A stretch of DNA of 28,153 bases from a virus, in the IMG/VR virus record IMGVR_UViG_3300027833_000182, positions 1 to 28,153 of that record; one strand, given 5' to 3'. A program made the translations under genes and the position numbers. Of the stretch, positions 4,144 through 28,153 are shown piece after piece (position 1 is the stretch's first letter; each line of letters begins with the position of its first letter). The notes below the pieces were generated by a model. It was not told the DNA's origin and made no database searches. It saw only the letters and a program-made list of their open reading frames with translations.

Positions 4144-5343
4144 TTAAATAGGTTCGATTGTTGCGTTGGGGTATAACTCTTTAGATTTACCCAAGAAATT
4201 TGTTACATCTTCGTCAGTGCCTTGTTTGTATCCAATTTTACCTTTGTGATAATCACGAACAGATTCGTACTTGTCTTCATAAGACTCAATAAGGTCTGTT
4301 GCCAGATTTCGCATCTCAGTTCTAGCTTTAGGCGTAAGCCCTTTACCTGTCTTGGCTTCTTCTGCAAGGTTTGATAGACTCTGAAATAAACCCGCAGCGT
4401 TTTTGGCTAACGCAAACTCACCTTCACGAACGACAGAATCTGGATCGAGTGTTTTCATGTAGTTAAATACAGCAGAAATATCACCGATACCCGTCTGCGC
4501 GTCTAACGCTTTAATCAGTTGTCGGTAGTTCATGTACGCAGCGCCAATGTCTTCGCTGATTCCTTGGAAGTTTTTGCCAATTTCTGTCATATCGTCGTAT
4601 GTTTGTTTTTCCATGAACCTTCTATTGGCACCAACAAACATTGCTTCCCCAGCGTTAACCCTTGCTTCTTGCGTAAGCTGCTGCAATTTGAGAGGGTCTC
4701 TGGAATTAAAGTCATCCATGCGGCCATTAAGACGGGCGTAGTCAAACACCAGCTTCCCTTGGGGGCTTACTGGAGAATTCAGGTCGCGTATTTGCTTTCG
4801 CATAGTCATATCATTGCGAGTGTTAGCTTCACGGATTGCGTCACGCTGATCAGCGTGTGCAATTGACTTCTCATACAAAGCTTTTGTGTACCCAACTGAC
4901 GATTCAAGCTGTGCGCGATATCCGCTTTTCCTAACCTCTGACGGATCGTACTTCCGGCTATCTTCTCCTGACAACCAAAATAGTGGTGACATAAAGAATC
5001 GGCCAGTGTCAGCTAACGTGTCACCAATCTTGAACATCGTTGAGTTGCCTTGCTCGTCGTATACCGCTTGACGAGCGTCACGCTTTGCCAACTCGTACTG
5101 CTGCATCTCAGTAGTGAGGTTGCGTACCGGGGATATAAACTCACCAGGGGTTCCGTTGTTTTGAAACCCAGCGCGTAAAAGTGCCTGCTCTTCAGCCGGA
5201 TTGCTGGCCTTTCGCACAGGCAGATTACGGATGTCTGACGCTTCGTTGATACCCGCAAGACGAGCATTATCTGCGCGATAGAGTTCGTTTTCTGTCGCTT
5301 CCGCTTCTGTGGGGTCGCGGAGCATGTCAAAATATCTTGCCAT
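4144..5343 (-). CDS. Internal virion (ejection-type) protein, 399 aa
   Basis: A helical, charged protein with no transmembrane segment. The stretch around residues 275-320 contains QTGIGDISAVFNYMKTLDP and SVVREGEFALAKNAAG, a block I recognise as recurrent in internal or structural proteins of marine podoviruses. The motif SPVSPQGKLVFDYARLNGR near 190 has the S..GK...D...L.GR pattern also seen in those proteins. AAGGA lies about 10 nt before the ATG. It sits between the Asn/Gln-rich virion protein and the 715-aa ejection protein, so it probably belongs to the same injected or core complex. The biochemical role is unknown. Confidence 0.65.
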   Translation of the reverse strand: MARYFDMLRDPTEAEATENELYRADNARLAGINEASDIRNLPVRKASNPAEEQALLRAGFQNNGTPGEFISPVRNLTTEMQQYELAKRDARQAVYDEQGNSTMFKIGDTLADTGRFFMSPLFWLSGEDSRKYDPSEVRKSGYRAQLESSVGYTKALYEKSIAHADQRDAIREANTRNDMTMRKQIRDLNSPVSPQGKLVFDYARLNGRMDDFNSRDPLKLQQLTQEARVNAGEAMFVGANRRFMEKQTYDDMTEIGKNFQGISEDIGAAYMNYRQLIKALDAQTGIGDISAVFNYMKTLDPDSVVREGEFALAKNAAGLFQSLSNLAEEAKTGKGLTPKARTEMRNLATDLIESYEDKYESVRDYHKGKIGYKQGTDEDVTNFLGKSKELYPNATIEPI

Positions 5344-5355
5344 TCTATCTATTCC

Positions 5356-6900
5356 TTATCCGAATCCGATGCCCATGCTGCTGGATTTACCACTCGCTTG
5401 CGATGAGGCGGTACTGAGGTTATTTGGCGCACCAACTATATTGTTATAGAAGTTCAAGCTGTTGTACGGAGACATACCCTGTTGAAACTGCTGTGCGTAT
5501 AGCTGTTGCTCGTATGCTCTCTGAGCATCTCCAGCGCCCTGACTCATGCCGACTCCCGTGTTCATCATGTTCTGGCCTGTCTGCATATTATTGACACCCT
5601 GCTGGCCGATGTTCTGAGCCATGTTTGCGCCAAACTGCTGATTCTGAAGTCCCGCACTTGTTCCGTATTGTCTTGCTGAGTTGAAGGCGTTTTGGTTGCC
5701 CATTCCAGATTGCTGTGATCGATTAAGATTGCTTTGCAACTGACTTGCGCCAATCTGGTAGCCCTGACCCATCATCTGGTTCTGCGCGTTCATATTCGCG
5801 CTGTTGGCCTGCTGACCAAAACCAGCGTTCTGCGATGCCGCACCGGAGGCGATGTTAAGCCCAGTGTTCATCATTGCGTTGCCAGCGTTCTGATTTGCAA
5901 GATTTGTCTGCTGCTGGAACCCAGCGTTCTGACTCGATTGATTACCCGCAATACCCAGACCTTGACTTGTCATTGCGTTCTGAGCATTTGCGTTAAATTG
6001 ATTACCACCTTGCTGAAGTTGCGCGTTTTGGTTAGCGCGACCAGCTTCAATGTTTAAGCCGGTGTTGTAAGCCTGCCCCCGCATGTTGGCCGATATGTCG
6101 CCAACCCGATCAGCCGCACCGCGCATCGCGATACCTGCCGCAACACCAGCGCGACTTGACCCGCTGTTGCCTGTGCCAGCCGCTTGAGACGCAATGCCTG
6201 TTAGCTGGTTCTCGTTGAGATTGCGAGTGATATCTCTGCTGGCCGCATCGATCTGACCGTTCAACACACTGTTGTTCATATAGCTGTTGAGGTTGTTAGT
6301 GTTGATGCCCTGGTTCTGGGCGATACCTGCACCAGTCGCCAAGCCGCCTGCCTGAGTAGCGGTGTTAGCGTTGAACCCGTTAGCAGATGCGGCTGTTGAG
6401 TTTTGTGCCAGACCACCGATGGCCTGCGCGTTCCCCATATTTATACCACTGTTGGTGGCCGCATTCATTTGACTGGCGTTACCTGCCATGCTGCCTGCCA
6501 TGCCATGATTGACACCGCCACCCTGCGCCGCGTTCAGTCGCATAACGCCATTAGCGTATGAGTTACCTGCGCCCATTGCTGTGTTCATCCCGCCGCGTCC
6601 CATTGCATTAGCAGCATAGTTCATAGCAGCGCCAGTGCCTGCCGTCTGCGTAGCACCAAGACCCATAACATTAGCACCCGCGCCAGCCTGCATTTGACCG
6701 CCTTGGTTCGCCATGCCCATCGCGTTTAATTGTGTTTCGTTCAGGCCAGCAACACCCTCCACAGGCATTCCCTGGGAATTTAGTTGTTGCGCTTGAGATC
6801 GAAGATCATCAAGATATGGCTGCTGACTTTCGTCAACATAAGTGTTTGCGTTACTGCTTGATTGGTTTTTACTTTTTGATTTACTAAATGAAAAGCCCAT
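5356..6900 (-). CDS. Asn/Gln/Gly/Ala-rich low-complexity virion protein, 514 aa
   Basis: An extremely biased protein dominated by Asn, Gln, Gly, Ala and Met. A Ser/Lys-rich head (FSKSKSKNQSSSN) precedes a short normal segment (QQPYLDDLRSQAQQLN, residues 27-42), then some 400 residues of imperfect short repeats built on NAGF/NAQN/NAM followed by MNTGLNIA or MTSQGLGIA. No domain, signal peptide or transmembrane segment is visible. It follows the nozzle and the 82-aa protein and precedes the ejection proteins, so it is probably a tail-tip or internal virion component. The repeats could form an elongated or disordered structure; an amyloid-like state is possible but speculative. Confidence 0.6.
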   Translation of the reverse strand: MGFSFSKSKSKNQSSSNANTYVDESQQPYLDDLRSQAQQLNSQGMPVEGVAGLNETQLNAMGMANQGGQMQAGAGANVMGLGATQTAGTGAAMNYAANAMGRGGMNTAMGAGNSYANGVMRLNAAQGGGVNHGMAGSMAGNASQMNAATNSGINMGNAQAIGGLAQNSTAASANGFNANTATQAGGLATGAGIAQNQGINTNNLNSYMNNSVLNGQIDAASRDITRNLNENQLTGIASQAAGTGNSGSSRAGVAAGIAMRGAADRVGDISANMRGQAYNTGLNIEAGRANQNAQLQQGGNQFNANAQNAMTSQGLGIAGNQSSQNAGFQQQTNLANQNAGNAMMNTGLNIASGAASQNAGFGQQANSANMNAQNQMMGQGYQIGASQLQSNLNRSQQSGMGNQNAFNSARQYGTSAGLQNQQFGANMAQNIGQQGVNNMQTGQNMMNTGVGMSQGAGDAQRAYEQQLYAQQFQQGMSPYNSLNFYNNIVGAPNNLSTASSQASGKSSSMGIGFG

Positions 6901-7158: not shown

Positions 7159-8711
7159 CGACCAGCTACTTCAGACACATCGATATCCAACCCAGTAAGT
7201 CGCCAGAAATCTTCAACGTGATTACTTTCAATTCTAAGCGCGAAATAACGTCCAGAAGTTCTAACGTCAATTTTATGATCTGACTCGATGTTGTAAATCA
7301 CTGGTGGTTTCCACCGTATGCCGCCTTGCGGTGAATCGCTAACACCTATAGAAATCGATACTTCGCCTTGGCCTTCGATCTGGGGGAGTATTCCAACCAT
7401 CTGCTTGATGGCGTTATTGGCTTTTCCAAGCACCGTGTCTAAATCTATTTTAGTGGCCTCCAGATAAGCATTTAGAGGCTGACCAGCCGCACCGTGGGTG
7501 CTGTTCATTTGGTACAGCTTACTATTTTCAGCACCGGCAGCATAAACTCCGATACCTTTATTGGTGGTGTTGAGGCTAGACGTTGACCAATACTCGTTGC
7601 TGTTCGCCCATGTCAAACTGTTAGCATCCCAGCCGCCAGTGGTGTCGAGAACATCGCTAGATGTCAGTGAGCGAACATTTGGCAAATCGATAAACGTAAA
7701 GGCGTTCTGCGCCCAGTTGTAAACTAGCGCCCTGTTTGCACTTAAAACATTGTCAGCATCTTCATCGGCGTAGCATATCCAAACTTCTGACTTATCTTCT
7801 ACGGTATGACAGAACACTGACCGGGTGTCTTGTACGGCGTTGAAGAATGTTCTTCGCACTCTCTTATCAACAATAGATTCTTTGCTATTTCCATCGTGAA
7901 CATAGATATCATTGTTGCCGACAACAAGGTGCTTGTTGAAAAAAGCAGCCACAGCCCCTCTGTTGATAATGCCGTCATCCCCAAACACTTCACGGAAACT
8001 AAATACAAAAGGTGCGCCGATGAAGTCCATCGCAAAAACACCCGACTCAGCGTAAATAATCTGAGAGTTGTTGAGCGTCATTTGATCTATCAACTCACCG
8101 TTGTTGCCGGAGAGAACATTCTCACCAGCGAGATTAGTCGTTGATGTGATGTCGTAATCGCCCGGTACGGATGTCGGATTGTATTCATCCGACCAACGCA
8201 CCGTGTACGGATGCTTCGTTGAAGCCGTCTCATAGCCAGCCATTATCAGAAAACTTCGATAGGGCTTTATGCAGTTACTTGTGACCGTTGACGGCCAGTT
8301 AGGTAAGTCAGCGAATCGTGCGCCCGTAGGCAGCATGTACTGCGGTGTCTGGCTACCGTTATTAAGCATCATCGCCAAGCCTAGCTGCTCTGACTGCCAC
8401 CGTGGCGAGTTGGAATAATTAGTCGCATCACTTGTCTTTGTTACGTTAGCAACGGCTGATCCGTTATATCGGTACAGCTTATTTAGCGATCCAATAATTA
8501 CGGTGTTGTTACCGGCGTATCGCCAACCTTGGACATGCGTCGGGTCAAACGCCAGTGCGTTTGAAATGCTGTGGCCCAAGGATTTACCAATGCGTCCTTC
8601 ATGGAATTGCACGTTGTTCCCGTCTGGGAACTGGGTTAATTCCAAATCGTATGGGTCTTGATCAGTGACTATACCGCCACTGCCAATTTTCCGAAGCGGA
8701 ACAAATGCCAT
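7155..8711 (-). CDS. Tail nozzle / tail hub protein (propeller type), 518 aa
   Basis: The N-terminus MAFVPLRKIGSGGIVTDQDP followed by a D.L....FPDGNNVQF..G segment matches the opening of podoviral nozzle or hub proteins (T7 gp12, P22 gp10 and SU10 nozzle type), which form a propeller closing the tail tube. Length is close to P22 gp10 (about 470 aa). The protein is beta-rich throughout, with repeated Y-N/W-R/Y blade-like segments such as KLYRYNGSAVANV and DIYVHDGNSK. The C-terminal region (EGQGEVSISIGVS, SGRYFALRIESN) is beta-sandwich-like. It abuts the upstream fibre gene (TAA directly before ATG). Exact orthology to gp10 or gp12 cannot be decided by eye. Confidence 0.7.
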   Translation of the reverse strand: MAFVPLRKIGSGGIVTDQDPYDLELTQFPDGNNVQFHEGRIGKSLGHSISNALAFDPTHVQGWRYAGNNTVIIGSLNKLYRYNGSAVANVTKTSDATNYSNSPRWQSEQLGLAMMLNNGSQTPQYMLPTGARFADLPNWPSTVTSNCIKPYRSFLIMAGYETASTKHPYTVRWSDEYNPTSVPGDYDITSTTNLAGENVLSGNNGELIDQMTLNNSQIIYAESGVFAMDFIGAPFVFSFREVFGDDGIINRGAVAAFFNKHLVVGNNDIYVHDGNSKESIVDKRVRRTFFNAVQDTRSVFCHTVEDKSEVWICYADEDADNVLSANRALVYNWAQNAFTFIDLPNVRSLTSSDVLDTTGGWDANSLTWANSNEYWSTSSLNTTNKGIGVYAAGAENSKLYQMNSTHGAAGQPLNAYLEATKIDLDTVLGKANNAIKQMVGILPQIEGQGEVSISIGVSDSPQGGIRWKPPVIYNIESDHKIDVRTSGRYFALRIESNHVEDFWRLTGLDIDVSEVAGR

Positions 8712-14934: not shown

Positions 14935-16389
14935 TTAAAGCTCCTTCCATCCAATTGCTGAGTCCAAAAACACTAGGGTTGCACCAGCGTCTGCCGCCAA
15001 TGTCCCGTCATCTGTTGTTGAATTAATTTTAGAGCCGTTACGGCCTACGGTTACTGCTGCTGTACCAGCATTCTTGATAAACACCACGTTGCCCGCTGAA
15101 GGGCTTGCAGGCAGAGTGATTGTCACTGCGCTACCTGAGTTTACGATTAGCTGGTCTTTGGTAGCGGCTGTGTAGTTTCCAGTTTTTATTGCAAAGTCGT
15201 TGAACGCACCACCAATGGTTGCAAATGCTAACGTGCCAGAACCATTCGTTGTAAGGCTTTGACCTGCTGTACCGTCAGTGACATTTAGCCTTGCTATGTC
15301 AACAGAGTTGTCAGCTATCTTTGCGGCTGTTATGGCATCATCAGCTATTTTTGCTGTAGTAACTGCACCATCGACAATCTTTGCCGTAGTCACTGTGTTG
15401 TCGCTGGGTGTGCCTACGTTTGTGACTGCAATAGCCGCTACCATAATCTCAATGGCTGACCCGTTTGCAGGAGCTTCAGAGAAAGTAACTACTGCGGGTG
15501 TTGCGCCAGATACTGCATACGTTGATTTGTTCTGATACACACCATCGACATACACCAGCGTGTTGTTTTCTATTGCTGCGCCAGATAGTGAGAAGGTTAC
15601 GTCACTACCATCACCAGTAAAGCTGTTGAGCAGCAGGTCAGCAGCACCGCCACCAATCTCGCCCCACTCTGTGGAGTAGCCTTCAAACTTGCCTTCCGTG
15701 GTGTTGTATCTGAACTGACCAGCTACGCCTGTGGGTCTTTGCGCTGTAGTACCTGCTGGTGTTCGCAAACTTGTGGGTATTACCAGCGAATCAATTGATA
15801 AAAATTGGAGAGTATCACCATCATTGACGTTGCCTGTCCCATCGCCATCGGCTCCAGCGGCACCTGTCGGGCCTGTCGGGCCTGTCTGACCTGTCGGGCC
15901 TTGCGGGCCTACTGCACCTGTCTGGCCTGTCGGGCCTGTCTGACCTGTTTGTCCATCTGTGCCATCCTGACCACTCGCGCCAGTTTGCCCTGTTATGCCA
16001 GTTGGGCCAGCAGGGCCGGTTGAGCCTTGAGGGCCAGTTGAGCCATTCGTTCCATCCTGACCTGTTGCACCCGTCTGACCTGTCAAGCCTGTTGGGCCAG
16101 TTGGGCCAGTTGGGCCAGCAGGGCCGGTTGGGCCAATGGGGGCTGAAACCCAAGCCGCGCCGTTGTAAAATCTAAGCAGGTCTAGCGTAGTATCAAAATA
16201 CAACGCACCCGCAATAAGATTTGTGGTTGGCGCACTTGTGAGAACACCGCGCCATGTTGAATTGAGTGTTGCAAGGCTTGCAGCCGCGTCTGTCGCTGAT
16301 GTTGCAGCCGCTGTTGCTTGGACAAGTGCATCGCCCTCTGCCGCGTCTTGCAGAGTTGCCGATGAAATATTTTCATAAAAACCTGACAT
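14935..16389 (-). CDS. Tail fibre with collagen-like stalk, 484 aa
   Basis: Order of modules: N-terminal Ala-rich helix plus a small beta module (1-85) ending in [20 protein letters not shown], a typical virion-proximal fibre element; an uninterrupted collagen-like run of 33 Gly-X-Y triplets (86-184), rich in GPT and GQT; a beta domain (255-320) containing [14 protein letters not shown]; four 10-residue repeats of the TTAKI type (331-370), a pattern of trimeric fibres; and a C-terminal tip (410-484) ending in GWKEL that is shared with the 104-aa protein. The architecture indicates a trimer with a triple-helical stalk. It follows the adaptor gene with one base between them. Confidence 0.85.
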
Positions 16390-23640: not shown

Positions 23641-24021
23641 TCAAAGCGATGACGGATCAACGCCTGCATCCTTCAACGCTTGGAGGGCTTCATCGATGTC
23701 GTGTGTCACAGTGACATCAGCGTTTATGTTAGCGTCTACTTCCGTCTTATCCCGCCAGCCGCCTCGATTCTTTAGAAAGAATATCTGCGCTGAAGTGTTG
23801 GGCTTGTCCCCGGTTGCGCCTTCAAACAGCGCGTTCGTGACTGCCGATACGCCAGCCTGCTTGCCAGCCTTTAAGGTGCTACTAAATCGTTCATCTTCAC
23901 GCTTTCGTCGGCCTATCGTTGAGACAGATATGCCCAGGCTTACAGCTATCTGTTCTTCTGAAAGCCCTATCTTTGCTAAGTCATACAGCTTTTCGTAATC
24001 AATAACAATTGTGTTTGCCAA
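23641..24021 (-). CDS. terS: Terminase small subunit, 126 aa
   Basis: Helix-turn-helix at residues about 8-38: YDLAKIGLSEEQIAVSLGIS followed by STIGRRKRED. Then KAGKQAGVSAVTNALFEGAT and AQIFFLKNRGGWRDKTEVD, the oligomerisation core seen in many TerS proteins (F.L.NR.GW.DK). Start choice: TTG at 24021, preceded by a perfect AGAGGA (24029-24034) with 7-nt spacing. The longer in-frame ATG at 24057 overlaps a TATAAT box (24056-24061) and has no ribosome site. Role: recognises phage DNA and recruits TerL for packaging. TerL follows after a 51-aa gene and a structured gap. Confidence 0.8.
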   Translation of the reverse strand: MANTIVIDYEKLYDLAKIGLSEEQIAVSLGISVSTIGRRKREDERFSSTLKAGKQAGVSAVTNALFEGATGDKPNTSAQIFFLKNRGGWRDKTEVDANINADVTVTHDIDEALQALKDAGVDPSSL

Positions 24022-24028
24022 TGCTAAA

Positions 24029-24034
24029 TCCTCT
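24029..24034 (-). promoter_or_regulatory. Ribosome binding site deciding the TerS start
   Basis: AGAGGA on the minus strand, 7 nt before TTG at 24019-24021. It is the only good Shine-Dalgarno near the N-terminus and supports the TTG over the ATG at 24055-24057. Confidence 0.65.
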
Positions 24035-24055
24035 GTTAGATGTCCACTGAGGCGC

Positions 24056-24083
24056 ATTATATCCTATCTACAACCAGTGGTTG
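24056..24083 (-). promoter_or_regulatory. Promoter candidate of the packaging and structural genes with operator
   Basis: Minus strand: consensus TATAAT (24061-24056) preceded by a perfect 13-bp palindrome CAACC-N3-GGTTG (24071-24083), which covers the place where a -35 box would lie. No good -35 hexamer is present (TCAACC at 17-bp spacing). Transcription would start near 24049, giving a leader of about 28 nt before the TTG of TerS. The weak -35 suggests dependence on an activator or tight control through the palindrome. Confidence 0.5.
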
Positions 24084-24180
24084 AGTATCCCCTGCATGGT
24101 TGACCAAGATCGATGACAATATAGGCTGCATGGGTTCGCAAATCAGGCTACAACCCGCATAGGCTCTCACTTTTAAGCCT

Positions 24181-24489
24181 AACCTGCACAGCATGCACAA
24201 GTCCCAAAAAACAACCTGTGCAGCTCTAGGCCATGTCACCAGTGGCTTACAGCGATTCTGCACAGGTTCACAGGTTATTTTTATAAAATCCACATGAGAT
24301 TTATATGCACAGCACACACAGTAAACACAGTATTTGTATATTTATATTAGATATTAAAAATAACCTGTGCATCCTGAGTAACCTGTGTTTGGTCAGTACC
24401 CATGCGGCCTACAGCCGCACAGGTTATTTCCGTTTAAGAATAATAACCTGAGTAACCTGTGCAGTTGAACCTGTGCATCCTGTGCAGGT
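24181..24489. repeat. Array of AACCTGTGCAG repeats in both orientations
   Basis: Copies or part-copies on the plus strand: 24181-24186 (partial), 24213-24223 (full), 24362-24371, 24380-24387, 24445-24450 (partial), 24454-24464 (full), 24468-24477 and 24479-24487. On the minus strand: 24258-24268 (full), 24269-24276 and 24417-24425. The full copies at 24213 and 24258 are exact inverted repeats. Centres in the left and right clusters are 9-18 bp apart. The array lies in the one long non-coding region, between the replication and packaging modules, so iterons of a replication origin or binding sites of a regulator are the likely readings. Confidence 0.7.
24403..24419. repeat. Hairpin TGCGGC-CTACA-GCCGCA inside the repeat array
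   Basis: A perfect 6-bp stem with a 5-base loop, running directly into the inverted repeat copy at 24417-24425. The cluster of hairpin and repeats increases the resemblance to an origin or a regulatory node. It is not followed by a U-tract, so it is not a simple terminator. Confidence 0.5.
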
Positions 24490-24710
24490 AACACCGCCAG
24501 CCAGTTTCCCGCTGGAATTATTCTTTCCCAGATGGGAAGACATCATCATTTATACCGACCATCACCAACATCATCACCACATAAACACACCAATAAACCA
24601 TCATCACTTCAAAGCCTCACCGCTCAACTGTTTTTAGGGAGCGCATTCTAAGGTTATAAAGGTGTCCTCTCTAATGCTATATGGTTATATAGCTGATATC
24701 TTTGAGGCAT
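24490..24710. other. Non-coding region with G-free stretch and inverted repeats
   Basis: No gene is visible. The plus strand has no G from 24558 to 24613 (56 bases) and repeats CATCA/CACCA-type words. Inverted repeats: TTCCCA-GA-TGGGAA at 24525-24538 and GCTATAT-GGTT-ATATAGC at 24676-24693. Strong strand asymmetry beside a repeat array is usual at replication origins and at sites where a strand is kept single. No clear promoter was found here on either strand. Confidence 0.45.
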
Positions 24711-24733
24711 AAAAAAACCCCTCCGAAGAGGGG
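24711..24733 (-). terminator. Rho-independent terminator with UUCG tetraloop
   Basis: On the minus strand CCCCTC-TTCG-GAGGGG followed by seven T. The C(UUCG)G loop is exceptionally stable. It ends the early small-gene cluster (last gene 24808-24948) and isolates the repeat region. A second hairpin, CAGCAC-TGCTC-GTGCTG (24754-24770), precedes it. The plus strand also has TTTT after the stem, so weak bidirectional action is possible. Confidence 0.85.
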
Positions 24734-24807
24734 CTGTTTTGCTCTGCTTGACCCAGCACGAGCAGTGCTGTCATAGGACACGAGGGTTGCCCTTGGTCAC
24801 GAGGAAA

Positions 24808-26486: not shown

Positions 26487-28153
26487 TTATTCTCCATCCC
26501 AGTTTTCAGGGTCTAGCGGATCAGCCTCAACCACACCCGCGTCAATTTCATTCCAATCCACTTGAAGATTGTTGACTGAATCAAATATAAATCGGCATCC
26601 CTCAAGCGTATTTACTTCAATATGCCGCACACGCACACCTCCAACCGTTTGCTGCGTTGGTGTGTGAAACATCGCGTCATACTTTTTCAGGTCGCGCCAG
26701 AAAATGTTAGACTTTTTAGGAGTTTGATATCTGTTGTCGCGCAAAGTGCTGACATAAATATCGTGTATCTCTGACTTCGCAGCGTTGGTGCCAAACTGCA
26801 CCACGTTACCTCCGACACTTGCCTGACGCATTTCACCACTATGCAGGCAATTGAGAAGCCACTCTGAGACGTTGTCTAACGCCTCTAGCTTCTGGTCTTG
26901 CAGTGCCATTGTCTGCGGCACTAGGCGCAAATTTAACTGGCTCAGATCGAAGTTTCGTAGATAATGCAGCATTGCCGCAGCACCGCCAGCGTTGTACCAA
27001 GCGTCTAGCTTTGCAAAGTATTCGCTGTTCTGCATCCTGCTGTTGCCAACATCGAACACTGCAAACCGCCTCTCGTCGAGACTGGCCGGAACAACAAACT
27101 CTTCGTTTGAAGTAAATAAAATTCGCGTGTAGTTCTGCGCCGAATAAGCATCAACGCCTTTGCGCTCAATTTGAATTTTGTCGTTGGTAAGCAGGTCTTT
27201 CAAAGCACCTTCAGATGCTTTTGCGCCAGCCCAATATGCCTCATCGGCTTGGAGCAGCAGGCAGGACTCAAGATGCCTGTTAAAGTTACCAGTGACGGCC
27301 TCTGCCCTTGCAACTATCTGGTGATGTGCCGCAAACAAATGTCCCAGCAGCTCACCAAACTTGGTCTTACCCGTACCCTTTCGCCCTCTCAGGACAAGGC
27401 CAACACCGACCTTTGTCATAGGCTTCTGGATGATCTGCGCCGCCCAGCCGATGATGTAGTTGGCGTGTGTGGCATCACCGTCAGCGATAACTTCCGTGAC
27501 AAAATCGAGCCACGGGGCAACGTCACCCTCTTCAGCCTCAACCGACCAGCCTCGCCACAGGTTGTACCTGTCGAGCGTCTGCATATCAGGCGCGAAAGTC
27601 AGGCCAGCGGCATAGGTTCTACGCTCTGGATGCTCTAGCCACATATCTACTAAATTGAGCAGCTTGGGCTTTTCATCACCGCTAAGGACGCGGCAGTTCA
27701 TGTGTTCCTTTTTCAAATCGTCAAGCTTATATAAGACCATGTTGTCTTTGTTAAGGTCTTCACGCAGGACACGCGCTGAACCTTCGACGTGAACAAAGGC
27801 CCACTCTCGTAGCATCCGTGGAAGCCTCTCTTCAACTACCTGCTCAGACACAACGACCTGCTCCATAGCCTTAACGCTGGCAAGCGTAACTGGAGTCTTG
27901 CTACCGCTGTCGAAACTTTGATATCGACGCTCACACTGACCGTCTTGGTACTTTGTGCCAACACTTGACCACTCGTCCCAGATTTCCCAGCCGATATCCC
28001 GACCATCGAAATGGTGGTGCAGTGCCATGCCAACTTTGAGCCACTCGTCGTGGTGCGTGTCTGCGTCCAGCCCGTCAAGCATCTGCCGCACAGCCTCATC
28101 GTCCATCTCCATCTTGGCTTTAAACATCGACAGGTCGTCGGGATCGTGATGGA
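26487..28153 (-). CDS. Phage primase/helicase (DUF5906-type), partial at right edge
   Basis: The frame is open to the edge; the first ATG (28127) has no Shine-Dalgarno and is preceded in frame by HHDPDDLS, so the gene probably begins outside the window. Residue numbers are from that ATG. Residues 8-90: PriCT_2-like linker (DEWLKVGMALHHHFDGRDIG, then W..W). Residues 235-370: SF3-type helicase with Walker A GRKGTGKT (248-255), Walker B LLLQADEAYW (D295, E296), sensor ILFTSNEEF (N341) and an arginine segment DERRFAVF (351-358). C-terminus winged-helix-like. Role: unwinding and, with the missing N-terminal part, priming at the origin. Confidence 0.85.
   Translation of the reverse strand, partial: HHDPDDLSMFKAKMEMDDEAVRQMLDGLDADTHHDEWLKVGMALHHHFDGRDIGWEIWDEWSSVGTKYQDGQCERRYQSFDSGSKTPVTLASVKAMEQVVVSEQVVEERLPRMLREWAFVHVEGSARVLREDLNKDNMVLYKLDDLKKEHMNCRVLSGDEKPKLLNLVDMWLEHPERRTYAAGLTFAPDMQTLDRYNLWRGWSVEAEEGDVAPWLDFVTEVIADGDATHANYIIGWAAQIIQKPMTKVGVGLVLRGRKGTGKTKFGELLGHLFAAHHQIVARAEAVTGNFNRHLESCLLLQADEAYWAGAKASEGALKDLLTNDKIQIERKGVDAYSAQNYTRILFTSNEEFVVPASLDERRFAVFDVGNSRMQNSEYFAKLDAWYNAGGAAAMLHYLRNFDLSQLNLRLVPQTMALQDQKLEALDNVSEWLLNCLHSGEMRQASVGGNVVQFGTNAAKSEIHDIYVSTLRDNRYQTPKKSNIFWRDLKKYDAMFHTPTQQTVGGVRVRHIEVNTLEGCRFIFDSVNNLQVDWNEIDAGVVEADPLDPENWDGE

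Follow-up and report, generated by a model that had tools for sequence, protein, structure and literature searches.

A putative iteron-type replication origin in a phage with a PrimPol-PriCT_2-DUF5906 primase-helicase, and relatives that keep its plan while the repeat unit changes

The repeat array described here is very probably a phage replication origin that is recognised by the phage's own primase-helicase. It occupies positions 24181-24489 of the window, by which the whole stretch analysed is meant, namely a 28,153-bp IMG/VR virus record of a marine-type phage. An origin read by a DUF5906-type primase/helicase had been proposed in an initial annotation, and this proposal is supported by what was computed here: the array with its mirror symmetry, regular spacing and AT-rich core, the co-variation of the repeat unit with the primase, a predicted winged-helix C-terminus of the primase-helicase and the placement of arrays 3' of distant DUF5906 genes.

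When up to two mismatches are allowed on either strand, AACCTGTGCA is matched 13 times within the 309 bp: by five exact decamers (starting at 24213, 24362, 24454 and 24468 on the plus strand and at 24259 on the minus strand), three copies that deviate at one position and five that deviate at two. The octamer AACCTGTG is present in 8 copies, whereas no 8-mer was seen more than 4 times in 2,000 Markov-1 resamples of the region. Over the full window the 11-mer gives, with at most two mismatches, 22 matches against 9.96 expected, a number reached by 0 of 100 shuffles. The dense array in two orientations that the initial annotation had pointed out is therefore real, and its two exact inverted partners (24213-24223 and 24258-24268, 100% identity) as well as its GC-rich hairpin (24403-24419) are present. 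The copies are not scattered, as two oppositely oriented groups flank a core of 78% AT, compared with about 50% in the flanks. A single strand of the array folds strongly (z -9.0) because of this dyad symmetry of inverted iterons. An Rfam search returned no match, and among named phages with close DNA similarity none was found to cover the array. Its parts are as follows.

24181-24489, no strand: putative replication origin, two opposed iteron groups and an AT-rich core (from repeat counts; same architecture in 25 more family loci)
24213-24222, plus: exact AACCTGTGCA iteron at the outer position of the TerS side (forms an inverted pair with 24259-24268)
24259-24268, minus: inner iteron, exact AACCTGTGCA, TerS side (repeat scan of the array)
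24267-24276, minus: inner iteron AACCTGTGAA, TerS side, spaced 8 bp from the adjacent copy (an inner spacing of 8-9 bp is found again in relatives)
24277-24361, no strand: core with 78% AT, a candidate DNA-unwinding element (from AT content)
24362-24371, plus: inner iteron, exact AACCTGTGCA, primase side (repeat scan)
24380-24389, plus: iteron AACCTGTGTT, two mismatches (repeat scan)
24403-24419, plus: GC-rich hairpin TGCGGC-CTACA-GCCGCA (sequence not conserved in relatives)
24416-24425, minus: iteron AACCTGTGCG, inverted inside the primase-side half (repeat scan)
24454-24463, plus: iteron, exact AACCTGTGCA (repeat scan)
24468-24477, plus: iteron, exact AACCTGTGCA (repeat scan)
24477-24486, plus: iteron ATCCTGTGCA, spaced 9 bp from the adjacent copy (repeat scan)

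The main genes of the window are ordered on the minus strand as primase-helicase, Zn-ribbon protein, small genes, terminator, array, TerS, TerL, SU10-type portal, scaffold and major head protein. The array thus lies, as had been stated, between the replication and packaging modules, 124 bp from TerS and about 2.0 kb 3' of the DUF5906 primase-helicase, with several small ORFs in between. The earlier remark that no gene explains it holds as well, since there is no annotated family at the site and the lone ORF that reaches into it is an unsupported mechanical one. The following neighbours matter for the argument.

26487-28153, minus: primase-helicase (PriCT_2 and SF3/DUF5906), proposed initiator (N-terminal PrimPol domain cut by the contig end)
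24716-24735, minus: predicted intrinsic terminator that ends the small-gene operon ahead of the origin
24057-24317, minus: mechanical ORF of 86 aa with a GTG start, unsupported, reaching into the array (from the ORF list)
23641-24057, minus: terminase small subunit (TerS, phrog_309), neighbour of the array and, lacking co-variation with the unit, not its partner

Further repeats were observed in these genomes. Palindromic TTCCAnnTGGAA/TTTCCCnnnGGAAA-like elements, possibly operators, stand just outside the origin in the window (24495-24540), in L014 (6930-7050), in L040 (about 7280-7310) and in L184. Dense repeats of GGCCCAAC and CCGACAGG fill about 15750-16150 of the window inside a long ORF (14935-16389) that probably encodes a repetitive structural or tail protein, and L006, L028, L038 and L071 have similar GGGCCACA-rich repeats a long way downstream of their portal gene.

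Relatives were collected with a TerL-based scan, which yielded 80 relatives, and a primase-based scan, which yielded 70 loci, the contigs being often in common. Arrays are found in the equivalent location, downstream of the primase operon, and their letters differ: among close relatives the units include CCTGTGCA, CCTGTGAGT, CCTTGAACG, CCCTGAGT, CCCGTGCG, CCTTGACC and others. The unit AACCTGTGCAG is shared by the window, L009, L139 and L140, CCCTGTGCA/G by L012, L038 and L147, GCCTGTGAGT by L018, L019 and L021, TCCTGTGAGT by L026 and L034, CCTTGAACG by L028, L166 and L207, CCCTGAGT by L040 and L143, CCCGTGCG by L051 and L185, CCTTGACC by L046, L061 and L173, and CCCGTGCC by L071 and L075, while CCCCGTACG/CCTTGTACG occur in L057, CCTTTGACC in L189 and CCTGTGCCAC in L077. 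No recognisable array was seen in L084, and those of L006, L014 and L039 are degenerate. Clusters of the unit away from the array were absent from the near-complete genomes G051, G053 and G056. In relatives with a CCTTGACC origin a second direct repeat, ACCGCGACAAAT, adjoins the origin in 6 to 13 copies (L046/L047 about 5870-6000, L052-L054, L061 about 5420-5640, L172, L174, L181), and L061 has copies of AGCTGCAGAAAGTTA there as well.

The plan of the array is mirror-symmetric in 26 family arrays, with iterons oriented < < < > < < before the AT core and > > < > > > behind it. Spacings are mirrored too, around 19, 11, 20, 44-47 and 8-9 bp on one side and 8-9, 44-47, 19-20 and 10 bp on the other of a central gap of 90-124 bp (the gap size in most family arrays), so that the inner pair recurs at 8-9 bp, the inverted copy at 44-47 bp and the next copies at 19-20 and 10-11 bp. 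The AT content of the core was 67-78% in 14 of the 15 arrays measured, L071 with 47% being the exception. Mirrored repeats around an AT-rich centre are the anatomy of an origin, in which initiator sites flank a melting region.

It is conceivable, though we would put it at slightly under an even chance, that one phage group has repeatedly diversified the “password” of its origin, about a dozen dispersed iterons having been rewritten in concert and in place, in step with few to many changes of the reading domain, while the spacers, the symmetry and the AT core were kept. Higher conservation of spacers than of iterons in L031/L166 (0.85 against 0.70 identity) and in CCCGTGCG-type L051 against L057 (0.77 against 0.62) is consistent with rewriting in place; this was not so in window/L040 and L026/L019. 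Concerted rewriting in step with the reader would imply diversifying selection on the pairing of initiator and origin, for which origin-cutting nucleases, replication parasites and cross-initiation during co-infection are examples of possible pressures.

To which protein the unit belongs was addressed by Mantel comparison of array k-mer distances with protein distances in 19 non-redundant loci and a second set of 18. The primase domains correlate with array distance (r 0.30-0.45, p 0.0005-0.0065); in the set of 19 the values were r 0.45, p 0.0005 for the helicase and r 0.31, p 0.0035 for the primase C-terminus. No significant correlation was obtained in the same set for TerS (r 0.13, p 0.15) or the Zn protein (r 0.02, p 0.42), nor in the second set for the Cro-like HTH (r 0.22, p 0.08) or TerS (r 0.07). 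With the helicase controlled, the primase C-terminus adds nothing (r 0.04, p 0.35), hence the Mantel signal is that of the whole primase, and localisation to the C-terminus depends on a small number of natural swaps and a single pair with four substitutions. Among 70 close pairs, which are not independent, a different unit is predicted by the C-terminus with an AUC of 0.94 and by the middle domain with 0.91, in comparison to 0.62 for Zn, 0.58 for TerS, 0.55 for HTH and 0.42 for TerL.

The clearest natural swap is L061 (CCTTGACC) against L051/L185 (CCCGTGCG), where the unit cosine is 0.00 and the distance of the primase C-termini 0.39-0.40, whereas HTH (0.00), PrimPol (0.01-0.06), helicase (0-0.02), Zn protein (0.09-0.11) and TerL (0.01, L051 only) hardly differ. 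In this near-isogenic pair with unrelated units, then, the measured replication neighbours are at most 12% different. The converse is seen in L015 and L154, which keep the unit with a C-terminal distance of 0.08 in spite of distances of 0.44 for TerS, 0.50 for the Zn protein and 0.32 for HTH, and likewise in the window and L140 (Zn protein 0.50, g113 0.49, C-terminus 0.08). The letters of the unit track the primase-helicase rather than TerS, the regulator of Cro type or the gene for the Zn-ribbon protein. The Cro/YdaS-like HTH gene is located 5' of the primase (L006, 2227-2508), divergent from a DUF2800/Enc34-type ssDNA-binding module, and its product is identical in pairs with different origins.

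These comparisons bear directly on the alternative that the array is a cos/pac packaging start, its repeats being TerS sites beside terS. In many phages cos or pac is situated beside terS, and the array of the window lies 124 bp upstream of that gene. This explanation is nevertheless improbable: TerS and the unit do not co-vary (r 0.07-0.13, not significant; AUC 0.58), the unit was kept in L015/L154 although TerS is 44% diverged, and the array is placed about 2-4 kb from terS in L068, L070, L071, L075 and L076, in L075 with a run of opposite-strand ORFs between them. In addition, the arrays from bacterial genomes treated below sit 3' of the primase, and contig-end statistics gave no clear pile-up of contig ends at the array. 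The lack of co-variation and the distance of 2-4 kb were the grounds on which a TerS or cos/pac site was rejected.

Marginally less probable again is the reading of the array as an operator or enhancer through which a phage regulator controls late-gene transcription, which the initial annotation had named as its second option. With the terminator at 24716-24735 on one side and terS, the first late gene, on the other, the position would suit such a role, and the phage group does possess an HTH gene of the Cro/YdaS type 5' of the primase. However, L061 and L185/L051 have unrelated units but an identical regulator (distance 0.00), and in the three near-complete relatives G053, G055 and G056 the transcription units on either side converge towards the array, a context in which a promoter is not needed. 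Furthermore, the single sigma-70-like match near the array of the window falls outside it and is no more than expected by chance. The regulator's operator was rejected as the main role on account of the identical HTH and the convergent gene context; the array may have an additional regulatory role beside that of an origin.

If the array is an origin, its reader is to be sought in the primase-helicase, in which an SF3 helicase and a winged helix are both predicted; the full-length homologue in L140 has 758 aa and comprises Prim-Pol PF09250, PriCT_2 and DUF5906. The C-terminal 146 residues were modelled (m12b4873830be) with a mean pLDDT of 86.7 and the order H-H-E-E-E-H-H-E-E-H, and are predicted to be a winged helix. 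Its best PDB folds are Orc1/Cdc6 on origin DNA (2qby, E 0.008, prob 1.00) and ORC-Cdc6, and other matches are the replication terminator protein and PadR regulators. A 546-aa model matches the C-terminal region of NrS-1, with weaker matches to SaPI5 Rep and PriRep1; as its helicase part is poor (mean pLDDT 62.8), only the C-terminal domain was used. Two elements of this domain are proposed.

26538-26909, minus: C-terminal winged-helix domain, residues 407-530, proposed iteron reader (predicted structure and co-variation in close pairs)
26613-26711, minus: candidate specificity elements, recognition helix (473-483) and wing (487-505) (L185/L057 substitutions)

L185 (CCCGTGCG) and L057 (CCCCGTACG/CCTTGTACG) differ in the C-terminal domain at exactly 4 residues, all of which correspond to window residues 478 and 482, in the helix 473-483, and 491 and 492, in the first wing strand (487-495). 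About 5 further differences fall in the middle and helicase domains, and for this reason the pair is a strong lead, not proof, that residues of the predicted recognition helix and wing set the iteron specificity.

Outside the close relatives, the placement of arrays was followed in 46 bacterial-genome loci, i.e. contigs with distant DUF5906 relatives of the primase of the window. In 21 of the 46, a two-orientation 7-mer array was present at most about 700 bp downstream of the primase stop, compared with 2 of 1,123 control windows; the units include GGTCCA, CCTATGAC, CTTGGACC, ACCGACT, CTAGGAAC and ACCTGTCC, and opposing repeat groups were found in those arrays that were laid out. Among cultured phages, two-orientation arrays with an AT-rich stretch are located downstream of the DUF5906 primase in Roseobacter phage RDJL Phi 2 (L278, 7129-7404, GCTATACAA) and Ruegeria phage Tedan (L279, 8164-8463, GCCTTACA), both apparently unannotated. 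Bordetella phage BPP-1 (L261, NC_005357) has a compact 2+2 dyad of AACGAGGCA with 9-bp spacing and an AT-rich core at 4608-4711, about 470 bp 3' of its PrimPol-helicase. No array was found in the isolates YuA, VP2, RHph_I65 and PaMx28, whose primases are 30-45% identical. Long DnaA-box-like arrays of TTATGCACAGG/TTATCCACAGG were also encountered in L091 (6644-7164) and L126 (4886-4990), viral contigs unrelated to the phage group of the window.

The initial annotation had asked whether clusters of AACCTGTGCA occur away from primase genes. As pairs they do, in 50 unrelated viral contigs of which 49 are without DUF5906, but the architecture differs: among the 17 that were read, coding repeats and DnaA-box arrays prevail, and not the layout of the array. 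Sites for a host factor, such as DnaA boxes, in an origin used by the host machinery are very improbable. Resemblance of CCTGTGCA to the TTATGCACAGG arrays of L091 and L126 speaks for them; against them, TTWTNCACA has 0 matches in the entire window, which led to rejection of a DnaA-box origin, and the unit is wholly different between near-identical phages (CCTTGACC and CCCGTGCG), unlike the site of a conserved host protein. A chance or coding repeat without function, low-complexity or protein-derived, is hardly credible, for even though the AACCTGTGCA pairs of the 50 other contigs were mostly coding repeats where inspected, the array of the window is non-coding, runs in both orientations and is equalled in 0 of 2,000 resamples, and the conservation of position, symmetry and spacing while the letters change refutes it.

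How an origin read by the primase-helicase could work, from binding through melting, double-hexamer loading and priming to bidirectionality, can be pictured by analogy, the steps from binding onwards being drawn from SaPI Rep, SCCmec Cch2 and P4 alpha (PMC7581432, PMC6092414, PMC4234260). The C-terminal winged helix of the PrimPol-PriCT_2-SF3 (DUF5906) protein would bind the roughly 9-bp iterons on both flanks, and as the inner sites are 8-9 bp apart, about one helical turn, neighbouring subunits would be placed near one face of the DNA. The opposed groups would load two SF3 helicase rings face to face across the AT-rich core, the core would melt open between the rings, and the linked PrimPol domain would prime both strands, giving bidirectional synthesis. 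GC skew showed no inflection at the array of the window, and in six near-complete relatives it follows gene direction and transcription, so that it speaks neither for nor against an origin at this place.

The kind of origin is already known from PICI/SaPI elements, where two iteron sets surround an AT-rich region and the C-terminus of Rep reads them. Within the literature searched, an iteron origin is new for PrimPol-PriCT_2-DUF5906 phage replicases, for which a stem-loop without iterons was proposed before (PMC4234260), and so is the concerted switching of unit letters with a preserved layout. A concrete and testable origin is thereby offered for replicases widespread in phages and mobile elements, together with a natural series of initiator-origin pairs of differing specificities, of which one pair is only four reading-domain changes apart. 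Should the concerted switching be real, these pairs could give a readable protein-to-DNA specificity code for the winged helix of the primase-helicase, the joint change of specificity in an initiator and a dozen dispersed sites could be studied with them, and orthogonal phage-derived replicons would be on offer.

Of the known systems, the closest in PDB sequence and structure is the PrimPol-helicase of phage NrS-1 (6k9c, 6lrb), with PrimPol and an SF3 ring helicase in one chain. Its genome contains two copies of the 8-nt ssDNA priming site TTTGGTTA, and GTG priming is described as well (PMC7102993, PMC8718748). In the window TTTGGTTA occurs 2 times against 0.94 expected and 0 times in the array, and an NrS-1-type priming-site origin was rejected because of this absence; besides, several units of the window's family are without GTG. 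A P4 alpha-type replicon (ori/crr) was likewise set aside, as the P4 alpha primase is a bacterial-type TOPRIM enzyme whereas the window's family has an archaeo-eukaryotic PrimPol (PF09250 in the homologue L140). The pRN1 ORF904 and Bordetella BIP-1 replicases combine an AEP primase, in BIP-1 PriCT_2, an SF3 helicase and a winged helix (PMC4234260), and the replicase of the window is of the same domain class. In the BIP-1 study iterons were sought, the repeats were judged unlikely origins, and the origin proposed was one large stem-loop located immediately 3' of the gene (PMC4234260). The window, in contrast, has clear iterons, and its fold comes from their inversion and not from a lone stem-loop; BPP-1, a near-identical relative of BIP-1, has the AACGAGGCA iteron dyad despite the stem-loop proposal.

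Joint change of origin and initiator is documented for PLE RepA of Vibrio cholerae, in which the iterons of the origin and the specificity domain of the initiator are exchanged jointly among close relatives, the proposed pressure being attack by the phage nuclease Odn (PMC8263062). PLE differs in that its initiator is of the RepA_N family, its iterons are long and semi-palindromic, and it is a satellite and not a phage. In SaPI/PICI origins two iteron sets always flank an AT-rich region (PMC6092414), and the origin is 3' of an SF3-type initiator helicase, the C-terminal domain of which recognises the iterons, apparently as two hexamers (PMC7581432). The likeness extends to structure, since SaPI5 Rep (7ola) is a match to the protein of the window. 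The initiator of the window is, however, one PrimPol-PriCT_2-SF3 polypeptide of a phage that itself encodes capsid, portal and terminase, and since TerS, TerL, portal, scaffold and major head protein are all carried, the window is not filed as a PICI satellite. It further differs from SaPI/PICI in the displacement of the array by about 2 kb from the initiator gene and in that one closely related phage group has at least 10 different units.
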